Positions 6,414 to 32,168 of a DNA stretch of 39,737 nt are shown piece by piece (position 1 is the stretch's first letter; every line of letters starts with the position of its first letter). The notes beneath the pieces were generated by a model. It was not told the origin of the DNA. It searched no databases and saw nothing but the letters and a program-made list of their open reading frames with translations. A program made the position numbers and the translations under genes. The stretch comes from Chitinophaga pinensis (GTDB taxonomy: Bacteria > Bacteroidota > Bacteroidia > NS11-12g > UBA955): positions 1 through 39,737 of the forward strand of contig CAMDAF010000023.1 in the NCBI GenBank assembly GCA_945888525.1, read 5' to 3'.

Positions 6414-6458
6414 ATAGATGTTTGTTTGTTGCACATTTTACTTGATAGTAAACTTAAT

Positions 6459-7574
6459 TTATTTTTTTACAATAATTTTATCGCCATCATTAACCAAGTC
6501 GTATCCTTCGGTTATCAGCAAATCTCCTTCTTTTAAACCTTCAGAAATCTCAGCCAAGCCATTGTATTCTTTGCTAATAACAATCGATTTTTTAACTGCA
6601 ATTCCATTTTCAGCCACCAATACAAAAGACTCTTCAATTCCTTTTTGAATAAATTTGACAGGAACAATGATTTGCTTTTTAGCAGATTGATAGTCGTTTA
6701 TTTTTAATTTGGCAACCATATTTGGGTGGTATTTTTGACTATTCGGCAGCAAAATTTCAACTGTAAATGTTCTGGTCATATTGTTGATTGCTCTTGTTGC
6801 ATAGTTTATTTTACCGGCAAAAGAATCATTCATATCAGGAAAGTATATCATAACTTGGTCTCCTGTTTTTACGCGCATTGAATAGCTTTCAGCAAGTTCA
6901 GCTTTCACTTTCAAGTTTGAGAAATTAACAACATTGATTGCTGCCATGCCCGGACTAACCATTTGTGCTATTTTTATGTTTACGGCATCAACAGTTCCGC
7001 TTATAGGCGAAATGATTTTGCTCATTCTCAATTGCTCATTTAAGGCGCCTAGTTTTTTCTCTAAACTTTCTTTGGTGGTTTTTGATTGTAATAATTGGAT
7101 TTCAGTCCCAATATTTTGCTTCCATAAATTTTGTTGTCTTTGAAAAACTTGTTTGGCTAATTCTAGGTTGGTTTCAAGGTCCGATATTTGTTGTAAGATT
7201 GCATTGGCGTCAGTTTCTGCAAGAACTTGACCTTTTCTAACTTCGTCACCTGATTTAACATTTATTTTTGTGATTAGTCCAGGAATTTGAGATGAAAGTG
7301 AAACGTTTTCATCTGCGTCTACGCGTCCTTGCACGTCAATGTATGTTTTGAAGTTTTCTAAAACCAAAGCTGTGGTTTTTATTTCTAATAACTCTTCGAG
7401 TTTCTTACTTGTGTCAAGTTTTGCAATGTCTAATTCTAATTTAGAAATTTTGTCTTGGGTTTCTTTAAGTGTGGTTTTAAGTTTTTCTAATTCTTTTTTC
7501 TTTTGGTCTAAAGAATTGCTGCTACAAGCAGTAAATAATAGGGCAACGATTGCTATTTGGATTAGGGTCTTCAT
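6459..7574 (-). CDS. RND efflux periplasmic adaptor (membrane fusion protein), lipoprotein
   Basis: A 371-residue HlyD/AcrA-type adaptor linking the inner-membrane pump to the TolC-type channel. The N-terminus has a lipobox (LLFTACSS, Cys17), so it is probably lipid-anchored. A Lys/Glu-rich coiled-coil segment (about 25-60) is unusual in lying before the first barrel half. The biotinyl-lipoyl half (SGDEVRKGQVLAETDANA, about 108-125) leads into the helical hairpin (about 125-185). The second lipoyl half (SPISGTVDAVNIKIAQMV) and beta-barrel/membrane-proximal domains follow. It is 26 bp downstream of the TolC homologue and 45 bp upstream of the RND gene, consistent with a stoichiometric tripartite pump. 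Confidence 0.93.
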   Translation of the reverse strand: MKTLIQIAIVALLFTACSSNSLDQKKKELEKLKTTLKETQDKISKLELDIAKLDTSKKLEELLEIKTTALVLENFKTYIDVQGRVDADENVSLSSQIPGLITKINVKSGDEVRKGQVLAETDANAILQQISDLETNLELAKQVFQRQQNLWKQNIGTEIQLLQSKTTKESLEKKLGALNEQLRMSKIISPISGTVDAVNIKIAQMVSPGMAAINVVNFSNLKVKAELAESYSMRVKTGDQVMIYFPDMNDSFAGKINYATRAINNMTRTFTVEILLPNSQKYHPNMVAKLKINDYQSAKKQIIVPVKFIQKGIEESFVLVAENGIAVKKSIVISKEYNGLAEISEGLKEGDLLITEGYDLVNDGDKIIVKK

Positions 7575-7600
7575 CTGAATGAATGGTTATTTGTATTGTA

Positions 7601-8959
7601 TTAAAGTTTGATTGATTGTCCTAGCGCAACTTGGAAATCTAGTTTAGCCACTAAAAGGTCGTAAACAGCGCTTAGGTAATTTGTTTGGGTTGTTTTTAGG
7701 TCTTGAATAGACGTAGTAAGTTCTAAATTGCTTCCTACACCTTCATTGTATTTAATGTTGGTTATATTAACTATTCGCTTTGCTAACTCTAAGTTTTCAG
7801 TTTGTTGAACAACATATTCCATAGCTCTTAAGTACTTAAGCTTGGTTTGTTGCACTTCAAGGTCTATCATGTTTTCAACCTTGTGGATAGTGTTCTCAGT
7901 TTTTAATTGTTGAATTCTAGCTTTTTGAATTCTAGCATCATTCGCAAATCCACCAAAAATTGGAATATTGGCTTGTAAGGCTAAAAATGAGTTGCCATAC
8001 CAATTGCTGTAGTCAATTTTTTCGCCGAAATTACTTTGTTGAACAGTAAAAGCGCCTGCAAGGTTTGGCAATTTGCCGTATTGGTATCGCTTAACATCCA
8101 TTTTATTAAGCACCAATTGCTGCTTCAGAATTTGAAAATCAGATCGTTTGTTTAAATCAACTGTTGTGGAGGTGTCAGCAACATTGAAGCGGGAGTTTAA
8201 GTCGCTAATATTGTCGCTTAATTTAATGTTAATGGCTTGTTCCAATCCTATTTTAGCTTTTAACAAGCCAAGCACTATACTGTATTGGTCTTTTAATTTT
8301 TGTTTGCTAATTTCTAAGTTATTGAGTTGCAATCTGATTCTATCTACATCCAAAGATTCAGTAAATCCTTCTTTGTTTAAAGCTTTTACTTGATTGTATG
8401 TTTTAGTTAAGGTTTGACAAGATGCATCAAGTAAGCTGATATTTTCGTTTGCAATTAACGCTAGGAAATAGGTTTTTGCCACATCAATTTTAATGTCCGC
8501 CTCTGTTTTGCTGGAAATTTTCTTTGACATACCTGTAAATTCTTTTGCAGCTTTCAGACCAAGGAAATAAGTGCCATCCAACAGCAACCATGAAACGTTT
8601 ATTGCAGCCTGTGTTGTATAAGTATTGCCAATTCTTATAGGTGTACCTACACCATTAATTGGGAATACAAAAACTTGTTTTTGTATAGCGTCTTGAAAGT
8701 TTATTTGGCCTCTAACCTGCGGAATGCCAATTGCTTTAACTTCTTTTACTGTCTGATCTGCTATCGCAATGTCTGCGTATGCATTTTTAAGATCAGGGTT
8801 ATTGGTCATTGCATAATCAATGGCTTGACTTAAGGTCATAGACATTGTATCGCTTGTCTTGCTCTGGGCGAACATGCCAAAGCTGAACATAAATGAACAA
8901 AAGACCATAAAAGAACGCAGTCTTTTTTGGTTTTTATTGGAATATTTAAGGGGATACAT
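7601..8959 (-). CDS. TolC family outer-membrane efflux protein
   Basis: A 452-residue outer-membrane factor. A basic N-terminus is followed by a hydrophobic signal peptide ending near SFGMFAQS (about residue 33). The mature part begins with the OEP-family opening LSQAIDYAMTNNPDLKNAYADI and shows two long helical repeats, the second ending NEGVGSNLELTTSIQDLKTTQTNYLSAVYDLLVAKLDF-like, typical of the TolC/OprM fold. Several Met codons near the N-terminus could serve as start; 8959 gives a reasonable n-region. It lies 15 bp after the TetR gene and 26 bp before the adaptor gene, so the regulator, channel, adaptor and pump are probably cotranscribed. Confidence 0.93.
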   Translation of the reverse strand: MYPLKYSNKNQKRLRSFMVFCSFMFSFGMFAQSKTSDTMSMTLSQAIDYAMTNNPDLKNAYADIAIADQTVKEVKAIGIPQVRGQINFQDAIQKQVFVFPINGVGTPIRIGNTYTTQAAINVSWLLLDGTYFLGLKAAKEFTGMSKKISSKTEADIKIDVAKTYFLALIANENISLLDASCQTLTKTYNQVKALNKEGFTESLDVDRIRLQLNNLEISKQKLKDQYSIVLGLLKAKIGLEQAINIKLSDNISDLNSRFNVADTSTTVDLNKRSDFQILKQQLVLNKMDVKRYQYGKLPNLAGAFTVQQSNFGEKIDYSNWYGNSFLALQANIPIFGGFANDARIQKARIQQLKTENTIHKVENMIDLEVQQTKLKYLRAMEYVVQQTENLELAKRIVNITNIKYNEGVGSNLELTTSIQDLKTTQTNYLSAVYDLLVAKLDFQVALGQSIKL

Positions 8960-8974
8960 ATTGTAAAAATTGTT

Positions 8975-9595
8975 TTAAATTGTAGCGTTTTCTAATTTAT
9001 AGTCTTTTAAATTTTCTGTCATAAACTCAAGGCCTTCAGCAGAACAAATTGAGTTGAGGTGGTATTTTACCAGGTAGGCGTATTTTTCATAAAAAGGCAT
9101 CTTTGATAGGATCCCAATTTCACTGCCGATGCATTGCTCAACTAGCGCCATATAAAATCCTGCACAAAGGTTGACGTTAATATCGGTTTTATACAGTCCT
9201 TGCAAAATACCTAGATTAAGATTGTCTATAAGTTGTGTTTGTATTGTTTTTTCGCGGTGCTCTGTAAACAAAATGTAAGTCTCTGGATGGTATTTTTTTA
9301 GATCGAATAACAAACTTGGATTCATTTCTTTGTGTAACCCAATCATCATATTGGCTATTTTTAGAATTTGTAGAATCGCATTTACTTCCGACTTAAATAC
9401 GCTCTCACATAAAGATTCCATAGATTTTGTATGTAAAAGCAAGGTCTTTTTCACCAAATCATCTTTGTCTACCACGTATTGATATAGCGTCTTTTTAGAC
9501 ATGCTTAGTTCTTTAGCAACATCGTCCATTGTTATGCTTTTGATGCCATAGAGCATAAAAAGTTTTTCTGTTGAATTGCAAATTTTTGATAGCAT
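8975..9595 (-). CDS. TetR/AcrR family regulator of the efflux operon
   Basis: A 206-residue regulator with an N-terminal TetR HTH: LFMLYGIKSITMDDVAKEL, then SMSKKTLYQYVVDKDDLVKK (about 13-50). This is followed by an all-helical ligand-binding/dimerisation region without recognisable ligand specificity. It is the first gene of the efflux operon and would repress its own transcription as well as that of the pump, a common arrangement. A candidate operator (CGGAAAC-N16-GTTTCCG) lies 35-64 bp upstream of its ATG. Family assignment is secure; the inducer is unknown. Confidence 0.92.
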   Translation of the reverse strand: MLSKICNSTEKLFMLYGIKSITMDDVAKELSMSKKTLYQYVVDKDDLVKKTLLLHTKSMESLCESVFKSEVNAILQILKIANMMIGLHKEMNPSLLFDLKKYHPETYILFTEHREKTIQTQLIDNLNLGILQGLYKTDINVNLCAGFYMALVEQCIGSEIGILSKMPFYEKYAYLVKYHLNSICSAEGLEFMTENLKDYKLENATI

Positions 9596-12515: not shown

Positions 12516-14690
12516 CTATAGATTTTCTATAATGTATTCTGTGATTTTTTGCATTAAATGCACACGGTCTTTTCCCATTACATTGTGTTTATGTGCAGGA
12601 TATACAAAGTAATCTAAATAAGTATTTCCGGCATCTACGGCCGATTTGCAATACAACAAACTGTGTTGCCATAAAACAACGTCATCATCACAACCATGAA
12701 TCATCAAGAGTTTGTCTTGTAAATTGTTGACATAGTTTGTAAGATTTGCATTTTTGTATCCTTCTGGATTTTCAAGTGGCGTATCCATGTATCTTTCGGT
12801 ATACATGATTTCATATAAACTCCAATCGATTACTGGGCCACCTGCTACACCAACTTTAAATACTCCGGGTTGACGGCTCATTAAACTTGTGGTCATAAAT
12901 CCACCAAAACTCCAACCATGAACCGCAATTCTGTTTGCATCCACATAAGGTAGGTTTTTAAGATAATTAACGCCTGCAATTTGGTCGGCCATTTCTATTA
13001 ATCCAAGGTTTCTAAAAGTTGAACTTTCAAACTCATGGCCTCTATTAGAAGAACCTCTGTTGTCTAGGGTAAAAACGATATACCCTTTTTGAGCCATCAA
13101 TTGCATCCATAGATTGCTTCCTGCCAACCATGAGTTGCTTATCATTTGTGCATGAGGTCCCCCATATACATAGACCACAACTGGATATTTTTTTGACTTA
13201 TCATAATTTGGAGGAGTAATCATTCTGCAGTAAAGAACGGTTCCTTCATTTAGGATAGGGAAAATGCTGGTTTCGCCCAAAGTGTAATCCGATAATGGAT
13301 TCGGGGCATCTAAAAGTGACTTTATTTGATCGCCTTTATAGGTTTTAATAAGTATCTTTTTTGGAACATTTGTGCTGGAATAAGCATCTATAAAATGGGT
13401 AAAGCTTGAATTAAACAGGGCCATATGTGTGCCCTGCTCGGTGCTGAGCTTTTTTATATCACCATTGCCTATGTTAGCGCTGTATATATGCCGCTCTAAA
13501 GGGCTCTCTTTAGTTCCTTCGAAATACGCATACTCACCTTTGTTGTCAACGCCCAATAACCTTGTAACCATCCACTTCCCTGAGGTGATTTGACGAATCA
13601 ATTTGCCATTGGTATTGTATAGGTATAAATGGTTGAAGCCATCTCTTTCGCTTTGCCAAATAAACTTATTATTATCGTTTGGTAAGAAATAGAAACCGTG
13701 CTGAGGCTCAATATATTTTTCATCACGTTCTTCAAATAAAGTTTTTTCAAGGCTTCCGCTATTGGTATTGTAGCTGTTGATGAAATCTTGATTCTGCCCA
13801 CGGTTAACAATTGCCATATACAAGAATTCTTCATCAGGGCCCCAAGAAACATTTGTTAAATATTGATCAATTGGTTCGCCTGTCTCAAGATAGTTCACCC
13901 TTTGTGTACTTAAATCATAAATTCCAACGGTAACATGATGGCTTTTAGCGCCGGCGATAGGGTACTTAATCATGTTCACCGCGGCTGGCATTTTGCTGTT
14001 GTCATAAATTGCGTAGTCGCTTACCATACTTTCGTCCATTCTGTAAAAGGCCAATTTGTTGCCGCTTGGACTCCAAAAAAGCCCCTTGTCTATTCCAAAT
14101 TCATTGCGGTGAACTGTTTGCCCATAGACTATTCCTTTGCCCCCATCACTGGTTATTTGTTTAATGCCATTGCTGCCTAGAATAAATATATTGTTGTTTT
14201 CAACATAGGCTATTTGCTGGTTTCCATAATTGTATTCGATAGACTCCACGTTTTTTGAAATCTGAAGAATGAGTCTGAAGGCCTGAGCGGGTATATTGAA
14301 ATTGAGATATTCATTTTCTTTAAAAATTTTAATGTTGTCATTGTCAATCCACTCAAATGCAGGAAATGATTTGAAGTTCAAACCAGCTTTATACGTATTT
14401 GCTGCTGTGTTTAAACTTTCGAGACTAACACTGCTGTCTTCCTGATTGGTTTCAATATCAACAATGATCAGTTTTTGAGGCTTCCCTGATCTAAGAAAAG
14501 CATATTTAAGACCTCCTGGCAACCATTGTAGAGCATTCAAATTTTGAGGGCGTAATGATTTGTTGTTTTCCTTATCAAACATTAAAATGGCTTCTTCCAT
14601 GTTTAAGTATTTTGTTCCTTGGGCGGATAAGGATGAAGAAATTAGAATACAGAAGCTGACTAAAATTGATTTGAAATGGTTTAAATGCAT
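12516..14690 (-). CDS. S9 family (dipeptidyl-peptidase IV type) prolyl peptidase
   Basis: A 724-residue secreted serine peptidase. A signal peptide (about 1-23, cleavage after LSAQ) is followed by an eight-bladed beta-propeller (about 35-470) and an alpha/beta-hydrolase domain. The triad is visible: Ser594 in GWSFGGF, Asp669 in HGCDDDVV, and His702 in PAHKHNV. The propeller carries HRNEFGIDKGLFWSPSG, corresponding to the N-terminus-binding glutamate region of DPP-IV-type enzymes. Such periplasmic enzymes remove dipeptides ending in proline or alanine during protein utilisation. It is monocistronic and divergent from dapD. DPP-IV versus tripeptidyl peptidase specificity is not settled. Confidence 0.93.
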   Translation of the reverse strand: MHLNHFKSILVSFCILISSSLSAQGTKYLNMEEAILMFDKENNKSLRPQNLNALQWLPGGLKYAFLRSGKPQKLIIVDIETNQEDSSVSLESLNTAANTYKAGLNFKSFPAFEWIDNDNIKIFKENEYLNFNIPAQAFRLILQISKNVESIEYNYGNQQIAYVENNNIFILGSNGIKQITSDGGKGIVYGQTVHRNEFGIDKGLFWSPSGNKLAFYRMDESMVSDYAIYDNSKMPAAVNMIKYPIAGAKSHHVTVGIYDLSTQRVNYLETGEPIDQYLTNVSWGPDEEFLYMAIVNRGQNQDFINSYNTNSGSLEKTLFEERDEKYIEPQHGFYFLPNDNNKFIWQSERDGFNHLYLYNTNGKLIRQITSGKWMVTRLLGVDNKGEYAYFEGTKESPLERHIYSANIGNGDIKKLSTEQGTHMALFNSSFTHFIDAYSSTNVPKKILIKTYKGDQIKSLLDAPNPLSDYTLGETSIFPILNEGTVLYCRMITPPNYDKSKKYPVVVYVYGGPHAQMISNSWLAGSNLWMQLMAQKGYIVFTLDNRGSSNRGHEFESSTFRNLGLIEMADQIAGVNYLKNLPYVDANRIAVHGWSFGGFMTTSLMSRQPGVFKVGVAGGPVIDWSLYEIMYTERYMDTPLENPEGYKNANLTNYVNNLQDKLLMIHGCDDDVVLWQHSLLYCKSAVDAGNTYLDYFVYPAHKHNVMGKDRVHLMQKITEYIIENL

Positions 14691-21416: not shown

Positions 21417-22958
21417 ATGCAAAATATAGCAACCGTATTAAAGCAATTAGGGATTAAAAAATTAAATGAGAGTGTTTGTACAGGCGTTAATTGGATAAGC
21501 GCAGTTGGAAGCACCACACGTGAAATTACTTCTCCTGTAGATGGGAAAGCAATTGGTTCAGTTGTTTTCGCTACTGAAACAGAATACGAGGCTGTTATGA
21601 AGCGCGCACAATCCGCTTTTCCGATATGGAGAGCATTGCCAGCGCCAAAAAGAGGAGATATAGTTCGCCAGTATGGAAATGTTTTAAGGACTTACAAAGA
21701 TCAACTTGGTGCATTGGTTAGCTATGAAATGGGCAAAAGTTTGCAGGAAGGCAAAGGCGAAGTGCAAGAGATGATTGATATTTGTGATTATGCCGTTGGT
21801 TTAAGCCGACAAATGTATGGTTTGACCATGCCTAGCGAAAGGTTAAATCACCGGATGTTTGAACAATGGCACCCACTAGGTATCGTTGGTGTGATATCTG
21901 CTTTTAATTTTCCTGTTGCCGTATGGAGTTGGAATGCTATGATTGCTGCCGTGTGCGGAAATGTCACAGTATGGAAACCATCAGAAAAAACACCTTTATC
22001 AGCAATTGCATGTATGAATTTAATGAAATTGGTCTTAGAGGAAAATAATTTACCTGAGGGTGTTTTTACGCTTGTAAATGGAGATGCCGCAATAGGAAAA
22101 ATGATGGCTGAGGACAGACGCATTGGCTTGGTTTCTGCTACAGGAAGTACTGCTATGGGAAAATCAGTTGGCAAGGTGGTTGGAGAGCGTTTGGGCAGGA
22201 GTCTTTTGGAGCTAGGAGGAAATAACGCTATAATTTTAAGCGAACATGCTGACATGAATATGGCATTAAGGGCTGTGGTTTTTGGTGCTGTTGGAACGGC
22301 CGGTCAAAGATGCACAACAACCAGAAGGTTGATGGTTCATGAAAAAATATACGATGATTTTATTAAAAAATTAATTAAGGTATACAAACAATTGTCTATA
22401 GGAAACCCTTTGGATGAGAACAACCATGTGGGTCCGTTGATTGACCAAGCTGCAGTTAAACAATTTACCAATGCTATTGAGCAACTTAATAAAGAAGGCG
22501 GTAAAGTATTGTTTGGTGGTAAGGTATTGAAAGGCGCAGGGTATGATAGTGGATGTTACGTGCAGCCCGCCATTTGCGAGGCTAGAAACACCTATAAAAT
22601 TGTGCAAGAAGAAACATTTGCACCGATTTTATATGTGATGAAATATAAAAATATTAGCGAAGCATTGGCAATGCAAAACGATGTAAAACAAGGTTTGAGT
22701 TCGGCAATATTTAGCAATAATATTAGAGAAACAGAGCTGTTTTTATCTTCAGCCGGAAGCGATTGCGGTATTGCAAATGTTAACATAGGGACAAGTGGTG
22801 CTGAAATCGGAGGTGCTTTTGGAGGAGAAAAAGAAACAGGCGGCGGAAGAGAAAGCGGCAGCGATAGTTGGAAAGCTTATATGCGCAGACAAACCAATAC
22901 CATCAACTATGGCGATACTATGCCATTGGCACAAGGAATAAAATTTGATTTAGGATAA
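21417..22958 (+). CDS. amaB: Aldehyde dehydrogenase, ALDH7 (antiquitin) type; L-aminoadipate-semialdehyde dehydrogenase
   Basis: An NAD-dependent aldehyde dehydrogenase of 513 residues. Catalytic Cys299 lies in GTAGQRCTTTRR, the general base Glu265 in LLELGGNN, and the oxyanion Asn164 in SAFNFPVAVW. The GQRCTTTRR motif and the N-terminal layout are characteristic of the ALDH7 branch, which oxidises 2-aminoadipate 6-semialdehyde in lysine catabolism and also protects against other aldehydes. No other lysine-degradation genes are adjacent, so the pathway assignment is inference while the family is firm. It stands alone, divergent from the SGNH gene and separated from the response regulator by a promoter. 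Confidence 0.93.
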   Translation: MQNIATVLKQLGIKKLNESVCTGVNWISAVGSTTREITSPVDGKAIGSVVFATETEYEAVMKRAQSAFPIWRALPAPKRGDIVRQYGNVLRTYKDQLGALVSYEMGKSLQEGKGEVQEMIDICDYAVGLSRQMYGLTMPSERLNHRMFEQWHPLGIVGVISAFNFPVAVWSWNAMIAAVCGNVTVWKPSEKTPLSAIACMNLMKLVLEENNLPEGVFTLVNGDAAIGKMMAEDRRIGLVSATGSTAMGKSVGKVVGERLGRSLLELGGNNAIILSEHADMNMALRAVVFGAVGTAGQRCTTTRRLMVHEKIYDDFIKKLIKVYKQLSIGNPLDENNHVGPLIDQAAVKQFTNAIEQLNKEGGKVLFGGKVLKGAGYDSGCYVQPAICEARNTYKIVQEETFAPILYVMKYKNISEALAMQNDVKQGLSSAIFSNNIRETELFLSSAGSDCGIANVNIGTSGAEIGGAFGGEKETGGGRESGSDSWKAYMRRQTNTINYGDTMPLAQGIKFDLG

Positions 22959-22972
22959 TTTTCAATCCCCTA

Positions 22973-23004
22973 TTTGTTTTTGTTAAATAATCCCATTAAC
23001 TTTG
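22973..23004 (+). promoter_or_regulatory. Bacteroidota-type promoter for the LytTR regulator
   Basis: TTTG (22973-22976), 20 bp, TAACTTTG (22997-23004): a full -33/-7 match. The box ends 22 bp before the ATG, so the regulator is transcribed independently of the ALDH gene. Confidence 0.8.
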
Positions 23005-23026
23005 GTTTATTAAAACACAAATAGAC

Positions 23027-23767
23027 ATGAAAATTCTTTTAATTGAAGATGATTTATTAGCCATTGAGTATTTAGAAAAGCTTATTAATACTCATTTTCC
23101 TAATTATTTAATAGTAGGGAAGGCCCGCAGCATTAAAGAAGCATCCAAAATTTGCAATGCGGAGAGACCTGATTTATTGATTATGGAAATTCAGTTAAAG
23201 CAAGAGTCAAGTTTTGATTTGTTTGAATATATTGATTCCTCTCAATTGAATGTTGTTTTTACAAGCCGATTGCCAGAATTTGCGTTTAAAGCCATTAAGT
23301 TTGATGCCGTAGATTATTTGCTTAAACCATATGGTTTGGAGGATTTAAAACACGCAATCAAAAGGGTTGAAGTTCGCTTGAAATTGAACCAAATCATGCA
23401 AAACAATAAAGATTTGTTGAAGTTGGATAGGCATACAATTGGAGGAAATAAAATAATGGTATACGGCAATGAAAAAATGAATCCAATAAGTATTGAACAT
23501 ATTGTCAAAATTAAATCACAAGGGGCTTATTCAGACATTTATTTAGTAGGGAATAAGAAAATAACCTCTTCAAAACATCTTGGCTTGTATGAGCGTTTGC
23601 TTGAAGACAAGCATTTTGTAAGAATACACGATAATTGCCTAGTCAATGCAGAGCAAGTGGTGTCATACAAACCAGGTATAAATGCAAAGGTCATATTAAA
23701 GGATGAAACGTCTGAAAGTGTTTCAAAAAGAAAGAAGCGCGACTTCTTAACCTACTTTAGGGCTTAA
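23027..23767 (+). CDS. LytTR-family response regulator with Glu at the phospho-acceptor position
   Basis: A 246-residue regulator with an N-terminal receiver domain (1-115) and a C-terminal LytTR DNA-binding domain (about 145-243). The acidic pocket is IEDD (6-9), the switch Thr/Ser is in FTSR (78-81), and the conserved Lys is in LLKPYG. The residue aligned with the phosphorylated Asp (usually D in hydrophobic-x-D-I) is Glu54 in LLIMEIQL. The LytTR part shows IVKIKSQGAYSDIYL and FVRIHDNCLVN, the usual recognition region. No histidine kinase is encoded nearby. The Glu could mimic phosphorylation, giving a constitutively active or phosphorylation-independent regulator; the family call is firm, the mechanism is inference. 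Confidence 0.9.
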   Translation: MKILLIEDDLLAIEYLEKLINTHFPNYLIVGKARSIKEASKICNAERPDLLIMEIQLKQESSFDLFEYIDSSQLNVVFTSRLPEFAFKAIKFDAVDYLLKPYGLEDLKHAIKRVEVRLKLNQIMQNNKDLLKLDRHTIGGNKIMVYGNEKMNPISIEHIVKIKSQGAYSDIYLVGNKKITSSKHLGLYERLLEDKHFVRIHDNCLVNAEQVVSYKPGINAKVILKDETSESVSKRKKRDFLTYFRA

Positions 23768-24495
23768 AAAATTGATAGATTGTTTCCATTGTGCTTACAC
23801 AAAACAGAATAAGCATTTGGTTTTATTTTTTTGTAAGGGCTAAGAGAAACTATAAAGTTTTTTAGTTTCTGAATGTACTTCCTTTTTAAATTGTTTTTAA
23901 ATTGAAATTCAATCAATTCATCACTGGTGAACAAAAACCGCTCATCTAGAACTTCAAAGCCTTCGCTTTTTAATAAAAATTTAAATAAGGCAGGGGTATA
24001 AATATTGATGTGTCCGTAATCTAAGTAGTGTTTGATTTTTTCATCTACAAAAAAACTAAAATCAATTGGCACTTCAAAGTACTGGTATTCAGATACCCTT
24101 GCGATCTCTCTCAGCAATAGCCTTGGATGTTCAACATGCTCTACAACATGGCTGCAGGTTGCCAATTCAAATGATTTGTCTTGATGCGGAATATTGTAGC
24201 CATCAAATTTTTTAAGCTCCTTTAGTGAGGCAAGGTTTCGGGCATTTATGGCTGCTATTCCAGAATCAGATATTTCTAAACTGCTTAAGTTGTTTGTGAA
24301 ATTGCGTTTATCCAACCAGTATAAAACTGCACCATCTCCCGAACCAATATCTAAGGTTTTTTTTGAAGCATGCGCGGCACATAAATCAATAATATTAGAT
24401 GATTTTTGTTTTCCTCCAAGGTTTCGCCACTCGGAACTTTCATTTAAGTATTGCTCATTATAAGTAGCTGAAATTTGATTGGATGCCTGACTCAT
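23764..24495 (-). CDS. Class I SAM-dependent methyltransferase
   Basis: A 243-residue methyltransferase of the Methyltransf_11/23 type. Motif I is TLDIGSGDGAVLYWL (about 47-61) and the acidic motif II residue is in LEISD. Motif III is FELATCSHVVEHVEHP, with HVVEHV typical of ubiquinone/glycan-type methyltransferases. The C-terminal part (INIYTPALFKFLLKSEGFEV) is the standard helix-strand ending. No substrate can be assigned. It is monocistronic with its own promoter, and its stop codon shares the TTAA palindrome with the stop of the convergent response regulator. Confidence 0.87.
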   Translation of the reverse strand: MSQASNQISATYNEQYLNESSEWRNLGGKQKSSNIIDLCAAHASKKTLDIGSGDGAVLYWLDKRNFTNNLSSLEISDSGIAAINARNLASLKELKKFDGYNIPHQDKSFELATCSHVVEHVEHPRLLLREIARVSEYQYFEVPIDFSFFVDEKIKHYLDYGHINIYTPALFKFLLKSEGFEVLDERFLFTSDELIEFQFKNNLKRKYIQKLKNFIVSLSPYKKIKPNAYSVLCKHNGNNLSIF

Positions 24496-24567: not shown

Positions 24568-25332
24568 TCAATAATTTACCAAATATTGTCCTTTTGCATC
24601 AATTCTCAAATGGGGTGGATTTCTCATAAGTTCAAAATAATTGTAACCTTCTTGGAGGTTTTTCCAAAATACAATTTTTGCTGGGTCAAAATTGTAATAC
24701 GATTTTAAATATTGCCAATTGCTTGCATCCATTTTACAGGGATAAATATGTATGGGAATGTGGTAATTGGTATCTTTATTGTTTTGGGCTTGAACATTGC
24801 ACCAATAGAGCTCTTTGATTATTTGGTCATTCATCGGCAAACAGCCAATGGTTACACTATCTCCATGCACGAATATTTGCCCCCCATAATTCCCTTTTTT
24901 ACCAAGAATACTATCGCTTTTATTGGGGTAAGATACTTTGTACGAAAGATAAAAACTGCTGTATGGATTGTATTGGTTAATGTGGTAATATCCTTCAGGA
25001 ACTTGATTGTCTCCTTCACAACGCTTCGGACCTAATGCGCCAGAAAGTGCCATTATTTTGTAGGTTTTGATCAGTTTATAGCGGTGTTGAAGGCTATCGG
25101 CGCCCCATAATTCCATAATTTTCTCTTTTTTGAAGACCCTCCAGTAAATAAATTTTGGTGGGTATTGTAAATTGGCTGATGTAAAAGCTTGTTTTAGCAC
25201 ATCATCACTGCTAAGTCTTGCATTCCAAACCCTTTGATTGCCAAGTTGTTTTTCAGTGTATATTTGAGGCTGAGCCCATGAAAGGTTAGCGAATAGACTA
25301 AAAAAAAGAAATATTAGTTGGCGCAAATACAT
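24568..25332 (-). CDS. YafK-like L,D-transpeptidase family protein
   Basis: A 254-residue periplasmic protein with a signal peptide (1-20, cleavage after SWA). The YkuD catalytic core is visible: SYPNKSD (134-140), then VHGDSVTIGCLPMND with His156 and nucleophile Cys164, in the H-x-[ST]-x-G-C arrangement. The MALSGALGPKRCEGDNQVPEG segment upstream (about 94-114) is the substrate-facing motif shared with E. coli YafK/DpaA, an enzyme that removes Lpp from peptidoglycan. Whether this one is a transpeptidase or an amidase-like hydrolase is not decidable. It follows pyk by 5 bp on the same strand and may be cotranscribed with it. Confidence 0.88.
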   Translation of the reverse strand: MYLRQLIFLFFSLFANLSWAQPQIYTEKQLGNQRVWNARLSSDDVLKQAFTSANLQYPPKFIYWRVFKKEKIMELWGADSLQHRYKLIKTYKIMALSGALGPKRCEGDNQVPEGYYHINQYNPYSSFYLSYKVSYPNKSDSILGKKGNYGGQIFVHGDSVTIGCLPMNDQIIKELYWCNVQAQNNKDTNYHIPIHIYPCKMDASNWQYLKSYYNFDPAKIVFWKNLQEGYNYFELMRNPPHLRIDAKGQYLVNY

Positions 25333-25337
25333 TTGTC

Positions 25338-26771
25338 TTACTCAACCACTGATATCTTAATACTATTTGCCATTGACTTTTGTTTGATGGGCATACTTGC
25401 AGTGTGTATTACGATATCGTCTTTTTTAACTAAGCCATTTGATTGAAGAACCTCAATTACATCAGTAAATGTTTGGTCGGTACTTTCATATTTGTCATAA
25501 TAAAACCCTCTAACACCCCAAACCAAACTCATCGATTTTAATAAGCGTTTGTTGTTGGTGAAAATATAGATTTCAGCCCTTGGTCTGTATGAGGATATTT
25601 CAAGTGCAGAGTATCCGGATCTTGTCATACCAACAATAGATTTGGCTTTTAAGTGGTCACTCATTCTTACAGCGGTAAAACAAATTTCATCTGAAATAAA
25701 CGTCTCGCTTTGAGAAGTAGGCTTTGCACCTTTGTAATATACTCTTCTGTCTTTCTCAACGTCTTTTATGATTTTTTCCATTGTTTCAACTACCTTAATG
25801 GCATGCTCACCAACACTGGTTTCGGCGCTCAACATTACAGCATCTGCTCCATCAATCACAGCATTTGCAACGTCACTAACTTCTGCCCTAGTAGGAGTTG
25901 GGTTTACAATCATCGACTCCATCATTTGTGTAGCTACGATAACAGGCTTTGCTGCTTTCATGCATTTTTCAATGATGTTTTTTTGTATGATTGGTAAATC
26001 TTGTAAAGGCATTTCAACACCTAAGTCACCTCTTGCAACCATTATACCATCCGTTACTTCGATGATTTCGTCAATATTTGCGACAGCCTCAGGTTTTTCA
26101 ATCTTAGCAATTACTTTTGACTCTTTTCCGGCCGCAGCAATCCTGGCTTTTAAATCTACGATATCTTCGGCCTTTCTCACAAAAGACAAGCCAATCCATT
26201 CAATGTCATTTTCTAATCCAAACTGCAAATCGATGATATCTTTTTCGGTCAAACTGGGAAATGAAACATCCGTGTGTGGCAAATTGAAACCTTTTTTGGA
26301 CTTCAGAAGACCGCCTGTTACAACACTTGCTTCTACATCGGTTGCATTTAAAATCCTTTCAATTTTCAATTCAATTTTACCGTCATCAATTAGAATCAAT
26401 TCTCCAGGCTTAACATCATTGGCTAAATCCACATAGCGAATGCAAATTTTTTCCGCATTTCCAATCATTTCATTAGAAGTGAGCGTTAGTATTTGCCCTT
26501 TGGTAATTTCTATAGCGTCGTTTTCGATAAGGCCGATACGCAATTTTGGACCCTGTAAATCCTGGAGAATACAAACATCAGAATTTAATTCTTCGTTAAT
26601 GCTTCTAATGTGTTTAATCACTTCCAAATGGTCAGCGTGCGTGCCGTGGGATGAATTAATTCTGCAAACATCAACGCCTGCAAGGATAATATTCTTTAAC
26701 ATTTCTCTAGAACAAGTTGCTGGGCCTATGGTAGCTACAATTTTTGTTCGATTAAAATTCGATCTATACAT
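25338..26771 (-). CDS. pyk: Pyruvate kinase
   Basis: Glycolytic enzyme converting phosphoenolpyruvate and ADP to pyruvate and ATP. It is 477 residues from the ATG at 26771 (MYRSNFNRTKIVATIGPAT); an ATG four codons earlier is also possible. The A-domain motifs are NSSHG, KIEKPEAV with the catalytic Lys, VARGDLGVEMPL (metal-binding), and TQMMESMIVNPTPTRAEVSD, with a B domain inserted at about residues 75-165. The C-terminal domain (about 350-477) carries the allosteric region. It overlaps the upstream small gene and is followed 5 bp later by the YafK-like gene. Confidence 0.97.
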   Translation of the reverse strand: MYRSNFNRTKIVATIGPATCSREMLKNIILAGVDVCRINSSHGTHADHLEVIKHIRSINEELNSDVCILQDLQGPKLRIGLIENDAIEITKGQILTLTSNEMIGNAEKICIRYVDLANDVKPGELILIDDGKIELKIERILNATDVEASVVTGGLLKSKKGFNLPHTDVSFPSLTEKDIIDLQFGLENDIEWIGLSFVRKAEDIVDLKARIAAAGKESKVIAKIEKPEAVANIDEIIEVTDGIMVARGDLGVEMPLQDLPIIQKNIIEKCMKAAKPVIVATQMMESMIVNPTPTRAEVSDVANAVIDGADAVMLSAETSVGEHAIKVVETMEKIIKDVEKDRRVYYKGAKPTSQSETFISDEICFTAVRMSDHLKAKSIVGMTRSGYSALEISSYRPRAEIYIFTNNKRLLKSMSLVWGVRGFYYDKYESTDQTFTDVIEVLQSNGLVKKDDIVIHTASMPIKQKSMANSIKISVVE

Positions 26772-27219
26772 AAAAGTCTTCAATAAATAATTTGTTGTTA
26801 AGTATGTTGTTGTAAAATGGTGTTTTTTTTGGGATTAAATCAAATTTAAACTCAAAAATATTTTCAATGTCTGAATTTTGTTTAATTGCTTCTATAGCGC
26901 GCTCGAAATAATTGTAAATATCATCGCCATTGCAAATCAGAAAAAAATCAAATAAGGGTTTACTTTGAAAAAAGTATGCGTTGGTGCCTTTGTTTCTTAT
27001 CAGGTGCCAACTAAGTTCAACATCTTCAAAAGGGTAATAATAATGCCGATGCTTACTCATTAAATTTTCCACTCCAGCCTTTTCCCAATCTATATTAAGG
27101 GCTAAATTCATGCCGAAACTATTGTTAATGTGCCAAGCTAAAGTATAATCTGGCAAAACCGTTTTAATGCCGGCAATCTTCGGGTAGGTATAGGAAATGT
27201 CAAAATCTATTTTATCCAT
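26764..27219 (-). CDS. Small protein upstream of pyk, IPExxxVDY-family-like
   Basis: A 151-residue soluble alpha/beta protein without signal peptide or known catalytic motif. Its position overlapping the pyk start, its length, and internal features (LAWHINNSFGMNL near the N-terminus, HYYYPFEDVELSWHLIRN mid-protein, LFDFFLICNGD) resemble the Bacteroidota 'IPExxxVDY' family encoded before pyk. The eponymous C-terminal motif is not present here; the end reads KLFIEDFYV. Membership is therefore tentative. The overlap suggests translational coupling with pyruvate kinase; function unknown. Confidence 0.65.
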   Translation of the reverse strand: MDKIDFDISYTYPKIAGIKTVLPDYTLAWHINNSFGMNLALNIDWEKAGVENLMSKHRHYYYPFEDVELSWHLIRNKGTNAYFFQSKPLFDFFLICNGDDIYNYFERAIEAIKQNSDIENIFEFKFDLIPKKTPFYNNILNNKLFIEDFYV

Positions 27220-28538: not shown

Positions 28539-31500
28539 ATGTTTAGAAATAGAATTTTCTATGGTTTAATTGTGCTTTTGTCACTATTGTTTGCTAAAAG
28601 CGCAAATGCAACCCACCTGGTAGGTGGATTTATAAGCTATGAATACGTTGGAACTTCGAGTTTCGGGGCTAGATATACAATTACCATAACATCTTATAGA
28701 GATTGTAAGCCTGGGTCAATTCCATTTGAACCAAACATTGATGTTTGTGTTTTCCAAATTAGTGACAATCGATTGTATAAATCCTATAATTTTGTTAGAC
28801 AAAGTGTTGGTAAAGTTAAGCCTATAGGAAGAACTGATTGCCCTGAAGCTACTCAAGTTTGTTTGGAAAAGGCAGTTTATCAAAGGCAAATTGATTTGCC
28901 AACAAGTGCATTTGGTTATTTTGTTAAATGGGAAGTTTGTTGCCGGAATACCCAAGTGAATTTGCGCGATGGGCAAGGCGGCACACCCTATATCGGTCAA
29001 ACCTATCAAACCATTATACCACCAACGAATGTTAAAAATAGTACAGCATTTTTTACAGAGACTCCGGTGCCTTTTATTTGTATAAATGACACCACAGAAT
29101 TAAATAATTATGCAGTTGACCCAGATGGGGATTCTTTGGTTTACAAACTAGCCACGCCTTGGGACGGAGCCTCGTCGGCGACAAATTACCCTGGATGCGG
29201 GCCTGTTTATTCTCCTCCCGTGCCTATCGATCCTGCCGATTATCAGCTTGGTTATAATGGCAATATTCCATTCGGTGCTAACGGGTTATGCAAGATTAAT
29301 CCATCAAATGGGGTGGCTACGGTTTTTGCACAACAGGTTGGAAATTATGCTGTAGCAATCGATTTGTATGAGTACCGAAATGGCGTGCAGTTAAGTGTCA
29401 CGCGCTTGGATTTGCAAATATTGGTTATTAATTGTGGCGTAAATACAAAGCCCAGCATTTCCACCACCTCCAAAAAATACACAATTTTTGCTGGCGACAA
29501 GCTTTGTTTTAATGTCACAGGAAAAGACAAAGACAATCAGAATTTATCTTTGGATGGTTTTGGTGATTTGTTAACTGGTGCAAATGGTTTTGTTGGCAAT
29601 AAGGCCACATTTGCATCTGCTTCGGGCAATAGTTCGGTTTCTTCTCAGTTTTGTTGGCAAACGTCTTGCAACCAAGCCCGCAACACACCATATATATTCA
29701 CAGCAAGAGTGATTGACGATGGATGTCCATCAAAATACAACTTAGTTAACATTGAAATAAAAGTAAAGCCTTTTACAGGGAAAGCAACACTTACAGGTCC
29801 AAATACCGCATGTGAAGGGGCGAAAGGATTGGTTTACACTATTTCAACAAGTGCAGATTCATTGCCTGAATTAGCTGGGATAAGTCATCAAGTTGTAATT
29901 ACAAATGGTGTTCTAGTATCTCAAAGTCTGAACCAAATAGTGGTCAATTGGAATCGAGGTATAGCGCAAGGTGAAATAACTATTCAGGCCGTTTCTAAAT
30001 TTGGCTGTCTAGGGGCTCCTTTTACTTATAAAGTTAATCTTGTGCCATCACCAGCAAAGCCAATTGTAAAAAATATAGATACAGTTTGCGAAAATTCAAG
30101 TGTAAATTATAGCACTGTTCTGACCAATGGATACACTTACCAATGGTTTGTGCTTAATGGAAGTATTTTTGGGTCAAGCAACAGCAATTCTGTTTCAGTA
30201 GTTTGGGGTGCACCCGGCAAGGCCGCTGCTTATTTGGTTCACTTCAATCAAAATGGATGTCCAAGTGATACAGCAGTTATTGATGTCTGGATTTCAAAAC
30301 CAGCAGTTCCGGGTATAATTGGCAAACAATCTATTTGTCCCAATGCAAAAGGCTTAATTTACACAGTAGCCACAGCGTCAAATGGAAGTTCTTTTAAGTG
30401 GTTTGTTGCAGGTGGTGCAATCTATGGAAGTTCAAACAGTAATTCCATCACAATAAATTGGGGTAACCCTGGACTTGGATATGTGAAAGTTATTGAAACC
30501 AATCGCTTTGGATGTCCTAGCGACACCGGATACTACCCTGTTTCAAAATCATACAACTTAAATGCCGAGTTTATTGAAGGCGATACGGATGTTTGTGAAT
30601 ATACAAAGGCCCAAATATTTACGGTAATTTATGCGCCAAATACAACATACAATTGGACGGTTACAGGCGGGACATTGATTAGCGGGCAGGGAACGAATTC
30701 AATTCTAATAGATTGGGGAATAAGCGGTCTTGGTTCTCTTGGTATGTACCAAACAAGTTATGATTCTGTTAATCAAAAGGCGTGCGTGAGTAATTTAGTT
30801 AGTCGTGCTGTTAACATTAGAGCTTACCCTACAGCCAATAAAATCAATGGGGTATTAGAGGTTTGTCAATATTCAAGCTCTGGAGTTTATTCAGTGAATG
30901 GCTTGCCGAATTCAAGATATGTTTGGATGGTAAATGGTGATACGAGCAATATTAATGGGCAAGGCACAAAATCAATTCTATTTGATTATAGCAAAGAAGG
31001 TACATTTAATTTAGAAGTTATAGAAACAAGTGAATATGGCTGTTCGGGACCAAATTTAAAAATACAGGTCATAGTTCATCCAAAACCTCGCACCAGCCCA
31101 ATATTAGGTGATAGCATTATTTGTTCACCAAATTTATTGAATTATAATTATTCTGTAACAGGGTTTAATACCTCTAAATTCTATTGGACAGTATCCGGAG
31201 GATTGCCTCAAGCAATTAATAATTTACCTAACATTACAATTGATTGGAATGGCCAACAATACAATAAACTAAAAGTGGTAGAAGTCTCAGACTTTGGCTG
31301 TGTAGGCGACACAGTGCGCTTGGATGTGTTTTATGACAATCCATATTTGTATTTAAATTATATTACAGTAAATCCGCCGCCTGGAGCAGATGATGGTGTC
31401 GATGTTTATTGGTCATTGCGCAATGCGCCAAAATACAATAACCAATTCTTTATTGAAAAGAGGGCAGCAGGATCAGCGGGGATTTTCAATACTGTTGGCA

Positions 31501-32168
31501 CTGTTAATGGAAGTGCTGTGACTTTTAACGATTTCAATACCATGAACGATTCCAATGCATGGGAATACCGAGTGAAAGGATTTGATTTATGCGGAAAGCC
31601 ATTTTATACCTCTGTGCACACCAATATATTGTTGAAAGGTCAGAAGTTGGGCGGATACGATATCAGCATGAAGTATACACCTTATTTAGGTTGGGGTTCA
31701 AGCACAATCAAGTATGATTTATACCGCTATCTAAAAAACACAGGTCAATACGAATTGTTTGAGCCTAACATGAATACATTTAATCTGTCTTATTCAAATG
31801 GCTTGGAATATTACACCCAATGTTATAGAGTAAAAGGCACCAAATTAGGTACGGATACAGTTACATGGAGCAACGAAGTTTGTTTCAATTTTGATCCAGT
31901 TATTTTTATACCCAATGCATTTTCTCCAAATGACGACGATTTCAACGATGCTTTTGCGGTAAAAGGTGGAGCATTGAAATCTGTAGAGTTATTCATTTAT
32001 AACAGATGGGGGGAGAATTTATTCGTTGGAAAAAGCATCAACGATACCTGGGATGGTACCTATATGGGCAAGCCGCAGGCACAAGACGTTTATATGTACT
32101 ATTGTTATTATTACGGATTTGATGGCCGCAAATATTCAACAAAGGGTACTATTACGCTATTGCGTTAG
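28539..32168 (+). CDS. Large secreted protein with Ig/PKD-like repeats and T9SS type B C-terminal domain
   Basis: A 1209-residue extracellular protein. A signal peptide (about 1-24) precedes a mature start THLVGGFISYEYVG, a typical opening of Bacteroidota gliding-associated proteins. An N-terminal domain rich in paired cysteines (about 25-410) leads to six tandem Ig/PKD-like units of about 85 residues (about 412-934), each with one Cys near its start and one near its end. A fibronectin-like region follows (about 940-1115). The last about 85 residues (IFIPNAFSPNDDDFNDAF, then YNRWGE and WDG) are the CHU_C/type B sorting domain that directs secretion and surface attachment through the type IX system. 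A role in adhesion or surface structure is inferred; the SprB partner and PorSS genes are not in the window. Confidence 0.93.
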   Translation: MFRNRIFYGLIVLLSLLFAKSANATHLVGGFISYEYVGTSSFGARYTITITSYRDCKPGSIPFEPNIDVCVFQISDNRLYKSYNFVRQSVGKVKPIGRTDCPEATQVCLEKAVYQRQIDLPTSAFGYFVKWEVCCRNTQVNLRDGQGGTPYIGQTYQTIIPPTNVKNSTAFFTETPVPFICINDTTELNNYAVDPDGDSLVYKLATPWDGASSATNYPGCGPVYSPPVPIDPADYQLGYNGNIPFGANGLCKINPSNGVATVFAQQVGNYAVAIDLYEYRNGVQLSVTRLDLQILVINCGVNTKPSISTTSKKYTIFAGDKLCFNVTGKDKDNQNLSLDGFGDLLTGANGFVGNKATFASASGNSSVSSQFCWQTSCNQARNTPYIFTARVIDDGCPSKYNLVNIEIKVKPFTGKATLTGPNTACEGAKGLVYTISTSADSLPELAGISHQVVITNGVLVSQSLNQIVVNWNRGIAQGEITIQAVSKFGCLGAPFTYKVNLVPSPAKPIVKNIDTVCENSSVNYSTVLTNGYTYQWFVLNGSIFGSSNSNSVSVVWGAPGKAAAYLVHFNQNGCPSDTAVIDVWISKPAVPGIIGKQSICPNAKGLIYTVATASNGSSFKWFVAGGAIYGSSNSNSITINWGNPGLGYVKVIETNRFGCPSDTGYYPVSKSYNLNAEFIEGDTDVCEYTKAQIFTVIYAPNTTYNWTVTGGTLISGQGTNSILIDWGISGLGSLGMYQTSYDSVNQKACVSNLVSRAVNIRAYPTANKINGVLEVCQYSSSGVYSVNGLPNSRYVWMVNGDTSNINGQGTKSILFDYSKEGTFNLEVIETSEYGCSGPNLKIQVIVHPKPRTSPILGDSIICSPNLLNYNYSVTGFNTSKFYWTVSGGLPQAINNLPNITIDWNGQQYNKLKVVEVSDFGCVGDTVRLDVFYDNPYLYLNYITVNPPPGADDGVDVYWSLRNAPKYNNQFFIEKRAAGSAGIFNTVGTVNGSAVTFNDFNTMNDSNAWEYRVKGFDLCGKPFYTSVHTNILLKGQKLGGYDISMKYTPYLGWGSSTIKYDLYRYLKNTGQYELFEPNMNTFNLSYSNGLEYYTQCYRVKGTKLGTDTVTWSNEVCFNFDPVIFIPNAFSPNDDDFNDAFAVKGGALKSVELFIYNRWGENLFVGKSINDTWDGTYMGKPQAQDVYMYYCYYYGFDGRKYSTKGTITLLR
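29771..31341 (+). repeat. Six tandem Ig/PKD-like protein repeats
   Basis: The repeat region encodes six units of roughly 84 residues. Each has a Cys near the start (TACEG, TVCEN, SICPN, DVCEY, EVCQY, IICSP), a central YxW or FxW element, an N-S-I-x-(I/V)-x-W strand, and a Cys near the end (FGCLG, NGCPS, FGCPS, KACVS, YGCSG, FGCVG). Units two and three are the most alike (shared GSSNSNS). The repeats have diverged at DNA level, so this is old duplication rather than recent expansion. Confidence 0.8.

Follow-up and report, generated by a model that had tools for sequence, protein, structure and literature searches.

Gene, neighbours and upstream region

The window, that is, the whole analysed stretch of 39,737 nucleotides, carries at 23027–23767 on the + strand an orphan LytTR response regulator gene encoding 246 aa with an Asp-less receiver. 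The receiver (REC) domain covers residues 3–112 (23033–23362, + strand; Pfam PF00072, Response_reg, 55 bits against a cut-off of 30.2) and follows the (beta-alpha)5 order in the predicted model. The LytTR DNA-binding domain covers residues 150–242 (23474–23752, + strand; PF04397, 46 bits against a cut-off of 22.6). An N-terminal receiver and a C-terminal LytTR domain, both above cut-off, give the protein the architecture of the LytTR (AlgR/AgrA/LytR) response regulators.

The gene belongs to an orthologue group of nine members among the genomes of the genus. In seven of the nine group genomes the regulator gene lies directly downstream of an aldehyde dehydrogenase gene (21417–22958, + strand; Pfam PF00171); in G008 and G013 it is separated from the latter, yet adjoins the L,D-transpeptidase-like gene. 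No such regulator gene follows the aldehyde dehydrogenase gene in the other eight genomes of the genus. A convergent methyltransferase gene (23764–24495, − strand; Pfam Methyltransf_23), the end of which overlaps that of the regulator, stands beside it in six of the nine group genomes and is absent from the examined stretches of G008 C14, G013 C178 and G012 C20 (L045, L046, L049). The L,D-transpeptidase-like (YkuD) gene (24568–25332, − strand; Pfam) and the pyruvate kinase gene form a conserved block with the regulator in all nine. Beside the pyruvate kinase gene, 26764–27219 on the − strand encodes a 151-aa protein with no Pfam match at E ≤ 0.001, which is syntenic and fast evolving (51–61% in six distant relatives). 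At 28539–32168 on the + strand lies a gene for a protein of 1209 aa that has PKD-like domains and, at its C-terminus, a type IX secretion signal (CHU_C); this gene is syntenic wherever the stretch of a group genome was examined. At 2949–9595 on the − strand, an RND efflux pump, a membrane fusion protein and an outer-membrane channel are encoded by consecutive genes, whose upstream end is marked by a TetR-type regulator.

Upstream of the regulator, TTTG-N20-TAACTTTG at 22973–23004 (+ strand) matches the Bacteroidetes-type −33/−7 promoter consensus and lies at the same distance in the close relatives G009 and G010. The pattern has four matches in the window against 2.1 expected, and the support for this match is therefore solely its position and conservation. 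It is the candidate for the strong promoter that the initial annotation had proposed. A sigma-70 promoter was rejected, as its pattern gave fewer matches than the shuffles (4 vs. 7.8). The promoter match is enclosed by an inverted repeat with an inner distance of 39 nt, which is found in the window genome (G000), G009 and G010. Its left arm, CTATTTGT, lies at 22970–22977 and its right arm, ACAAATAG, at 23017–23024, two bases before the start codon (both + strand). Each of the three genomes has a single site of the form CTATTTGT-N39-ACAAATAG, always before the regulator, and the reversed control has no match in any of them. The arms are invariant (16/16) and the interior is so at 30 of 39 columns; all nine variable columns thus fall outside the arms (p = 0.033). 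In the six remaining group genomes the gene is not preceded by this repeat. The upstream stretch as a whole, identical at 55/68 and 57/68 positions (81–84%), is no more conserved than seven other intergenic stretches of the block (84/118 to 74/79, 71–94%). The inverted repeat is a candidate operator and offers a weak lead for autoregulation.

Residue 54 and its surroundings

Glu54, encoded by GAA (23186–23188, + strand), lies within LLIMEIQL at the phospho-acceptor position. In phmmer alignments, the Asp of the solved receivers 6m8o (LytR), 9qih (SenB) and 2qv0 (MrkE) stands opposite residue 54. The predicted model (mean pLDDT 80.9, pTM 0.49) has strand beta-3 ending at this residue, and the column holds Asp in 75 of 75 LytTR receivers of the genus outside the orthologue group. 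These three lines agree that residue 54 is the acceptor position. Another Asp as the true acceptor is ruled out by the solved-receiver alignments and the Asp column elsewhere. A phosphorylatable Asp at the end of beta-3 is absent from the window protein and, likewise, from eight of the nine orthologues, the window gene included. Standard phosphotransfer is impossible for a receiver without the acceptor Asp.

The metal-binding acidic pair is kept as E7-D8 (23045–23050; alignment with 6m8o and 2qv0), the Thr/Ser switch position as Ser80 (23264–23266), followed by Arg81 at T+1, and the active-site Lys as Lys100 (23324–23326), the latter two by alignment and all on the + strand. E7-D8, S80, Y97 and K100 are all kept in the window species and its two closest relatives. 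Unusual letters stand beside the pocket of the window protein, namely Arg at T+1, Lys at D+4 and Ser at D+8; T+1 is His in the two close relatives. According to section 7 of PMC12632262, T+1 is usually small, and Arg at T+1, Lys at D+4 and Ser at D+8 are unusual in true receivers.

The window protein is 88% and 87% identical to the proteins of G009 and G010, two genomes of the same genus, both of which have the same GAA codon. Synonymous sites are near saturation among the three (pS 0.64–0.83), and receiver dN is 0.023–0.119. Receiver dN/dS is 0.050 and 0.072 against the window gene and 0.009 between G009 and G010, values that are rough owing to the large dS; control receivers gave 0.005–0.043 where computable. 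The receiver dN of the window gene (0.101–0.119) is higher than the 0.012–0.078 of three other LytTR receivers of the same genomes, and that between G009 and G010 (0.023) has no excess over the controls (0.004–0.037). These substitution rates indicate purifying constraint on the Glu-bearing receiver of the window species, G009 and G010. Glu54 has been kept despite near-saturated synonymous sites and is therefore neither an error nor strain-specific. Three genomes that were assembled independently share the GAA codon and six of the nine orthologues have Glu, which leaves virtually no probability for a sequencing error or a mutation of one strain.

The initial annotation had placed Glu at the acceptor site of a receiver that was otherwise intact and not decayed. 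The placement is confirmed by the GAA codon at 23186–23188 and by the alignment to the Asp of solved receivers. The rest of the five-residue pocket is indeed kept, including S80 and K100, with the correction that the acidic pair is E7-D8 and not residues 8-9. The absence of decay holds in the window species, where the dN/dS of 0.050 and 0.072 against the relatives speaks for constraint. A strain-specific change or sequence error, which the annotation had named as a refutation, is contradicted by the three assemblies and the orthologues with Glu.

Receivers, LytTR domains and kinases across the genus

A search with PF04397 in 17 genomes of the genus gave 92 places. Eight of these have no receiver match, and the 84 receivers that remain were recognised by alignment, the Pfam receiver scan being confined to the nine group members and G012a, an Asp-type regulator described below. 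The column of residue 54 holds 76 Asp, 6 Glu, 1 Asn and 1 Phe across the 84 receivers. All eight Asp-less receivers belong to the orthologue group that contains the window gene; its nine members have six Glu, one Asn (in G005), one Phe and one Asp, the last in G008. For G005, G015 and G003, where divergence is greatest, the letter at the site is assigned by alignment. Asp is universal among the 75 receivers beyond the group, and 72 of these also retain the complete five-residue pocket; of the other three, one comes from a start-truncated gene, one has a D-N pair and one carries Cys at the position of Thr. Asp-less receivers therefore number 8/9 inside and 0/75 outside the group (Fisher p = 2e-10, a descriptive value as the rows are related). 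Orthologues carrying Asp had also been named as a refutation, which the eight Asp-less members contradict; conservation of Glu54 across the group, for which an alignment had been proposed, did not hold up beyond six of nine.

Several proteins outside the group have features of their own. The receivers at G015:C43:4530-4814 and G003:C52:1316-1600 (L121, L088) each have one odd pocket residue, namely Cys as the Thr/Ser switch and D-N as the acidic pair. Five LytTR proteins (L085, L087, L142, L149, L154) have, by eye, a hydrophobic and probably membrane N-terminal part, and three (L153, L155, L156) are barely larger than the LytTR domain. PMC6193735, a paper on LytTR regulatory systems, may concern one or the other kind.

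In a 27-row tree of chosen rows, the group is a single clade (support 100/97) with G012a as its sister (98/97). An 82-row quick tree, which leaves out two cut-off genes, agrees (SH-aLRT 97 and 96). Long branches are flagged in both trees and include G005, G015, G003 and the group member G012b, as well as G012a in the 27-row tree. Read by eye on the 27-row tree, a single early Asp-to-Glu change with a reversal in G008 takes 4 changes; alternatively, repeated Asp-to-Glu changes with Asp retained in G008 take 4–5, so that neither history is clearly the shorter. A search of the genomes of 84,980 species gave nine loci, comprising seven group members, the G012 locus, where the gene matched is G012a, and one weak clostridial match (E 3e-8, residues 1–129). 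The eight non-clostridial loci lie in MAGs of Bacteroidia, Bacteroidetes or Bacteroidota. A viral origin was rejected, since no relative is encoded in 165 pattern-matching stretches of viral contigs.

The receiver differs by degrees within the group. Its Pfam score is 72.6 bits in G008, 61.7 in the sister G012a, 56.1 in G010, 55.8 in G009, 55 in the window genome and 53.4 in G013. The score of G012b, 27.0 bits, is below the cut-off of 30.2, and Pfam gives no receiver match at E ≤ 0.001 for G005, G015 and G003. LytTR scores are 42–58 bits in all nine members. Comparisons that involve G005, G015, G012b or G003 give 14–31% identity in the receiver against 47–68% in the LytTR part; for instance, the window gene and G005 share 23% and 68%. 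Against the Asp-type G008, the window gene has 51% in the receiver and 48% in the LytTR part, and G000, G009 and G010 together 50–51% and 48–50%. Among the nine orthologues 33 columns are invariant; 30 of them lie from residue 153 onwards and three belong to the receiver. Columns at residues 1–29 are uncountable because the row of G003 lacks its first 29 residues.

Glu is accompanied by Lys, Thr/Ser and the acidic pair in G000, G009 and G010, and stands without the full remaining pocket in G013, G012b and G003. Two of the six Glu proteins have lost Lys, with Ser in G012b and Arg in G003; the acidic pair of G003 is ambiguous, reading L-C in one alignment and E-E past a gap in another. None of the nine frames contains a stop. 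G005 is predicted with the strand and helix order of a receiver (mean pLDDT 82.9; the other four models 66–69), relatives being present in the alignment.

The statement that no kinase lies nearby holds for histidine kinases, as no match to a histidine-kinase family was found at E ≤ 0.001 (Pfam) among the 33 likely window genes scanned, out of 64 mechanical ORFs of 80 aa or more. A kinase remnant in the window was rejected, since neither the G012 nor the G008 kinase had a tblastn match there at E ≤ 1. The window genome (98% complete) has four LytTR proteins and one PF06580 kinase, on contig C7, where it adjoins another LytTR regulator. The regulator thus stands alone as pseudo-receiver genes usually do, with no histidine kinase among the window genes scanned and the sole PF06580 kinase on C7. 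A cognate kinase beside the regulator, as in a LytS/LytTR pair, is likewise missing from the window genes scanned, and the kinase subfamily of the locus was seen only in G008 and G012.

In G012, contig C20 (L049:5978-9314 and 12912-13643), an Asp-type kinase pair and an Asp-less orphan flank the aldehyde dehydrogenase gene. G012a has Asp54 and five of five pocket residues. The start of its gene and the end of a PF06580 kinase gene (884 aa) overlap; this pair lies between the transpeptidase-like gene and the aldehyde dehydrogenase gene. G012b, directly after the aldehyde dehydrogenase gene, has Glu54, Ala in the acidic pair and Ser for Lys. G008 keeps Asp54 and the whole pocket. Its kinase gene starts 1.2 kb past the aldehyde dehydrogenase gene and runs off the contig end; the genome is 68% complete, with regulator and kinase on separate contigs. 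The gene before the G008 regulator is not kinase-like in the 69 residues visible.

Within the genus, the G008 kinase matches that of G012 best (E 3e-43; next 1.6e-29). In a tree of 43 kinases these two make up a clade of their own (100/99), without a third member. The tree covers 43 of 56 PF06580 places (two of the 43 being short pieces), the 13 omitted being short frames of 348–372 aa. In this lineage, Asp was thus found in just those two genomes which retain the kinase of the locus. The link is not strict, as G012b has lost its pocket although its genome encodes that kinase, and the presence of the kinase alone is therefore no predictor of Asp; in G012, the locus kinase has its own Asp-type partner, G012a.

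Interpretation and comparison with known regulators

From the observed substitutions, the clade, the kinase-paired sister and the graded differences, we infer that the window gene probably encodes a pseudo-receiver (Asp-less) LytTR regulator, a phosphorylation-independent orphan derived from a kinase pair. Its ancestor would have been the LytTR partner of a LytS-type kinase, the two-component pair being encoded next to the aldehyde dehydrogenase gene. Most species would have lost the kinase, and Glu, Asn or Phe would have taken the place of the acceptor Asp; several species would have lost all of the pocket and even a receiver that can be recognised by sequence, with the DNA-binding half staying. 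Losses presumably went in this direction and order. The regulator would bind DNA without phosphorylation, and its output may be set by the amount made, via its own promoter. In the window species and its two closest relatives, the persisting constraint and the retention of E7-D8, S80, Y97 and K100 make it most likely that the receiver continues to dimerise or to hold an active-like state, to which Glu54 may contribute. The regulator had been proposed to be constitutively active or differently triggered, which is likely.

Whether Glu itself does this is a separate matter. Glu54 could act as a built-in phosphate mimic that pairs with K100 and S80, for which the remaining pocket is kept in G000, G009 and G010, and pins the receiver in the active state, which would be the reason that no kinase is needed. 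Glu54 is fixed in these three genomes over near-saturated synonymous sites, and Glu is the commonest letter of the site in Asp-less receivers, at 26% according to PMC4395418. An engineered Asp-to-Glu change activates AlgR, and also ComE, where D58E raised DNA affinity, with a Kd of 21 nM against 371 nM for the wild type at pH 6.0 without StkP (PMC6010298). With StkP at pH 7.8, however, both ComE forms were weak (D58E >800 nM, wild type >1000 nM) in the same source. As reviewed in PMC12632262 and PMC4395418, Glu alone is often insufficient for activation, and its role was disproved in some natural cases. Moreover, only six of the nine group members have Glu, and two of these lack Lys, the expected contact of a phosphomimic. 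The proposal of the initial annotation is thus sustained as to Glu at the acceptor site, the kept pocket, the orphan gene and the constraint, and it lacks support as to Glu mimicry as a general explanation; its premise that such changes mimic phosphorylation applies to ComE at pH 6.0 and to AlgR, and often does not suffice. For the window regulator, mimicry of phosphate may be the cause, and we regard it as possible, though short of an even chance.

Alternatively, the receiver or the LytTR domain may respond to a different signal, be it a protein partner, a small molecule or the oxidation of Cys204. Cys204 (23636–23638, + strand), in the LytTR domain, is present in nine of nine orthologues against 3 of 82 other LytTR domains of the genus, and is Tyr in the kinase-paired sister. 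A Cys of a LytTR regulator that directly precedes the conserved His joins a disulfide (PMC12323615); partner control, by MirA, is described in section 18 of PMC12632262, and RitR is called a redox sensor in the title of a reference cited there. Cys204 nevertheless lies three residues past the conserved His instead of directly before it, and no second Cys is common to all nine orthologues. A signal of any of these kinds appears rather unlikely.

A passive, decaying receiver in the whole group, with the LytTR domain working alone, is a little less likely still. Pfam misses the receiver in three orthologues and scores a fourth below cut-off, and the receiver holds three of the 33 invariant columns (in an alignment whose G003 row lacks residues 1–29). 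Its dN against the window gene exceeds that of the three controls, and three genomes of the genus encode receiver-less proteins that barely exceed the LytTR domain. Against decay stand the receiver dN/dS of 0.009–0.072 in G000, G009 and G010, the match of these three receivers to that of G008, as good as that of the LytTR half, the nine frames free of internal stops, and the receiver fold predicted even for G005, the most diverged member, with relatives in the alignment. Phosphorylation on another Asp, or by cross-talk from the single LytS-type kinase of the genome, is very improbable. The acidic pair, Ser and Lys are kept in the window species and one PF06580 kinase is encoded in the genome; another kinase could in principle act on the receiver. 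However, the Asp residues that lie near the pocket in sequence, D8/D9, D49 and D96, are usual letters in Asp-type receivers too, and not acceptors, the sole PF06580 kinase adjoins its own Asp-type LytTR regulator, and a bulky Arg or His occupies T+1.

A broader reading of the pseudo-receiver regulator is offered tentatively, as something we would hold doubtful rather than probable. This single locus in one genus may record how a two-component regulator turned into a transcription factor free of phosphorylation, with control shifted to its own promoter and the flanking inverted repeat. The series would start from a kinase paired with an Asp regulator and pass to an Asp regulator that has no kinase beside it; Glu regulators would follow, first with the pocket intact and then with it broken, and at the end would stand a receiver no longer recognisable by sequence. 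Glu would usually come first, since it would keep the output on once the kinase had gone, and may have evolved repeatedly.

The closest full-length structural match is ComE of Streptococcus pneumoniae (4cbv), which like the window protein combines REC and LytTR (Foldseek E 1e-11, TM 0.35–0.39, rmsd 14–17, identity 16–19%), as if the domains of the window model were set differently from those of ComE. For the LytTR domain, Foldseek matched 3d6w, 4g4k and 4xqn. Natural ComE has Asp58 and the kinase ComD, its Glu being engineered (PMC6010298); D58E is employed as the active form (PMC11109429). Similarly, D54E of AlgR from Pseudomonas aeruginosa, employed as the active form, is a phosphomimetic at the same residue number as the window Glu54 (PMC5790918), and AlgR shares with the window protein the AlgR/AgrA/LytTR subfamily, so named in PMC6010298. 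Natural AlgR differs from the window protein in having Asp54 and a kinase, and its D54E is engineered.

ChxR of Chlamydia trachomatis has an output domain of the OmpR type. Like the window protein it has a natural Glu at the acceptor site, and it binds DNA constitutively; changing this Glu to Asp or Ala did not abolish the DNA binding of ChxR (PMC4395418). The aspartate-less receiver (ALR) or pseudo-receiver (PsR) response regulators, as presented in PMC4395418 and PMC12632262, resemble the window regulator in having a REC-family domain without the acceptor Asp, an orphan gene, a Glu replacement, and atypical letters at T+1, D+4 and D+8. The trait that defines ALRs in section 5 of PMC12632262, a missing acceptor Asp, is found in the window protein with its Glu54 and in eight of the nine orthologues. 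Asp-less receivers are about 4% of receivers (Maule et al., as cited in PMC12632262), and section 4 of the same review gives estimates of about 4, 6 and 13% for the pseudo-receiver share of domains called receivers; its abstract calls their activation and inactivation a mystery.

The message of the single gene is modest because Glu is the most usual letter in Asp-less receivers. Glu in such receivers is already known, and the new interest is the orthologue series. The window regulator differs from ALR/PsR regulators in its LytTR output, LytTR being unmentioned in the main texts of PMC4395418 and PMC12632262. No description of a LytTR pseudo-receiver was found in the literature searched, which, consisting of open-licence papers, is weak evidence of novelty. 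The pair of G012a and its kinase resembles the window regulator in being the sister of the group within the same gene neighbourhood, and differs from it in Asp54, all five pocket residues and the kinase gene that overlaps its start. In contrast to known ALR/PsR regulators, one locus in one genus has Asp, Glu, Asn and Phe versions together with an Asp-type, kinase-paired sister. The orthologues of this neighbourhood, running from a full pocket to an unrecognisable receiver with the sister pair surviving in one species, provide a natural series for asking whether Glu keeps the output on after the loss of a kinase, what use remains for the receiver fold, and what the conserved LytTR half targets.
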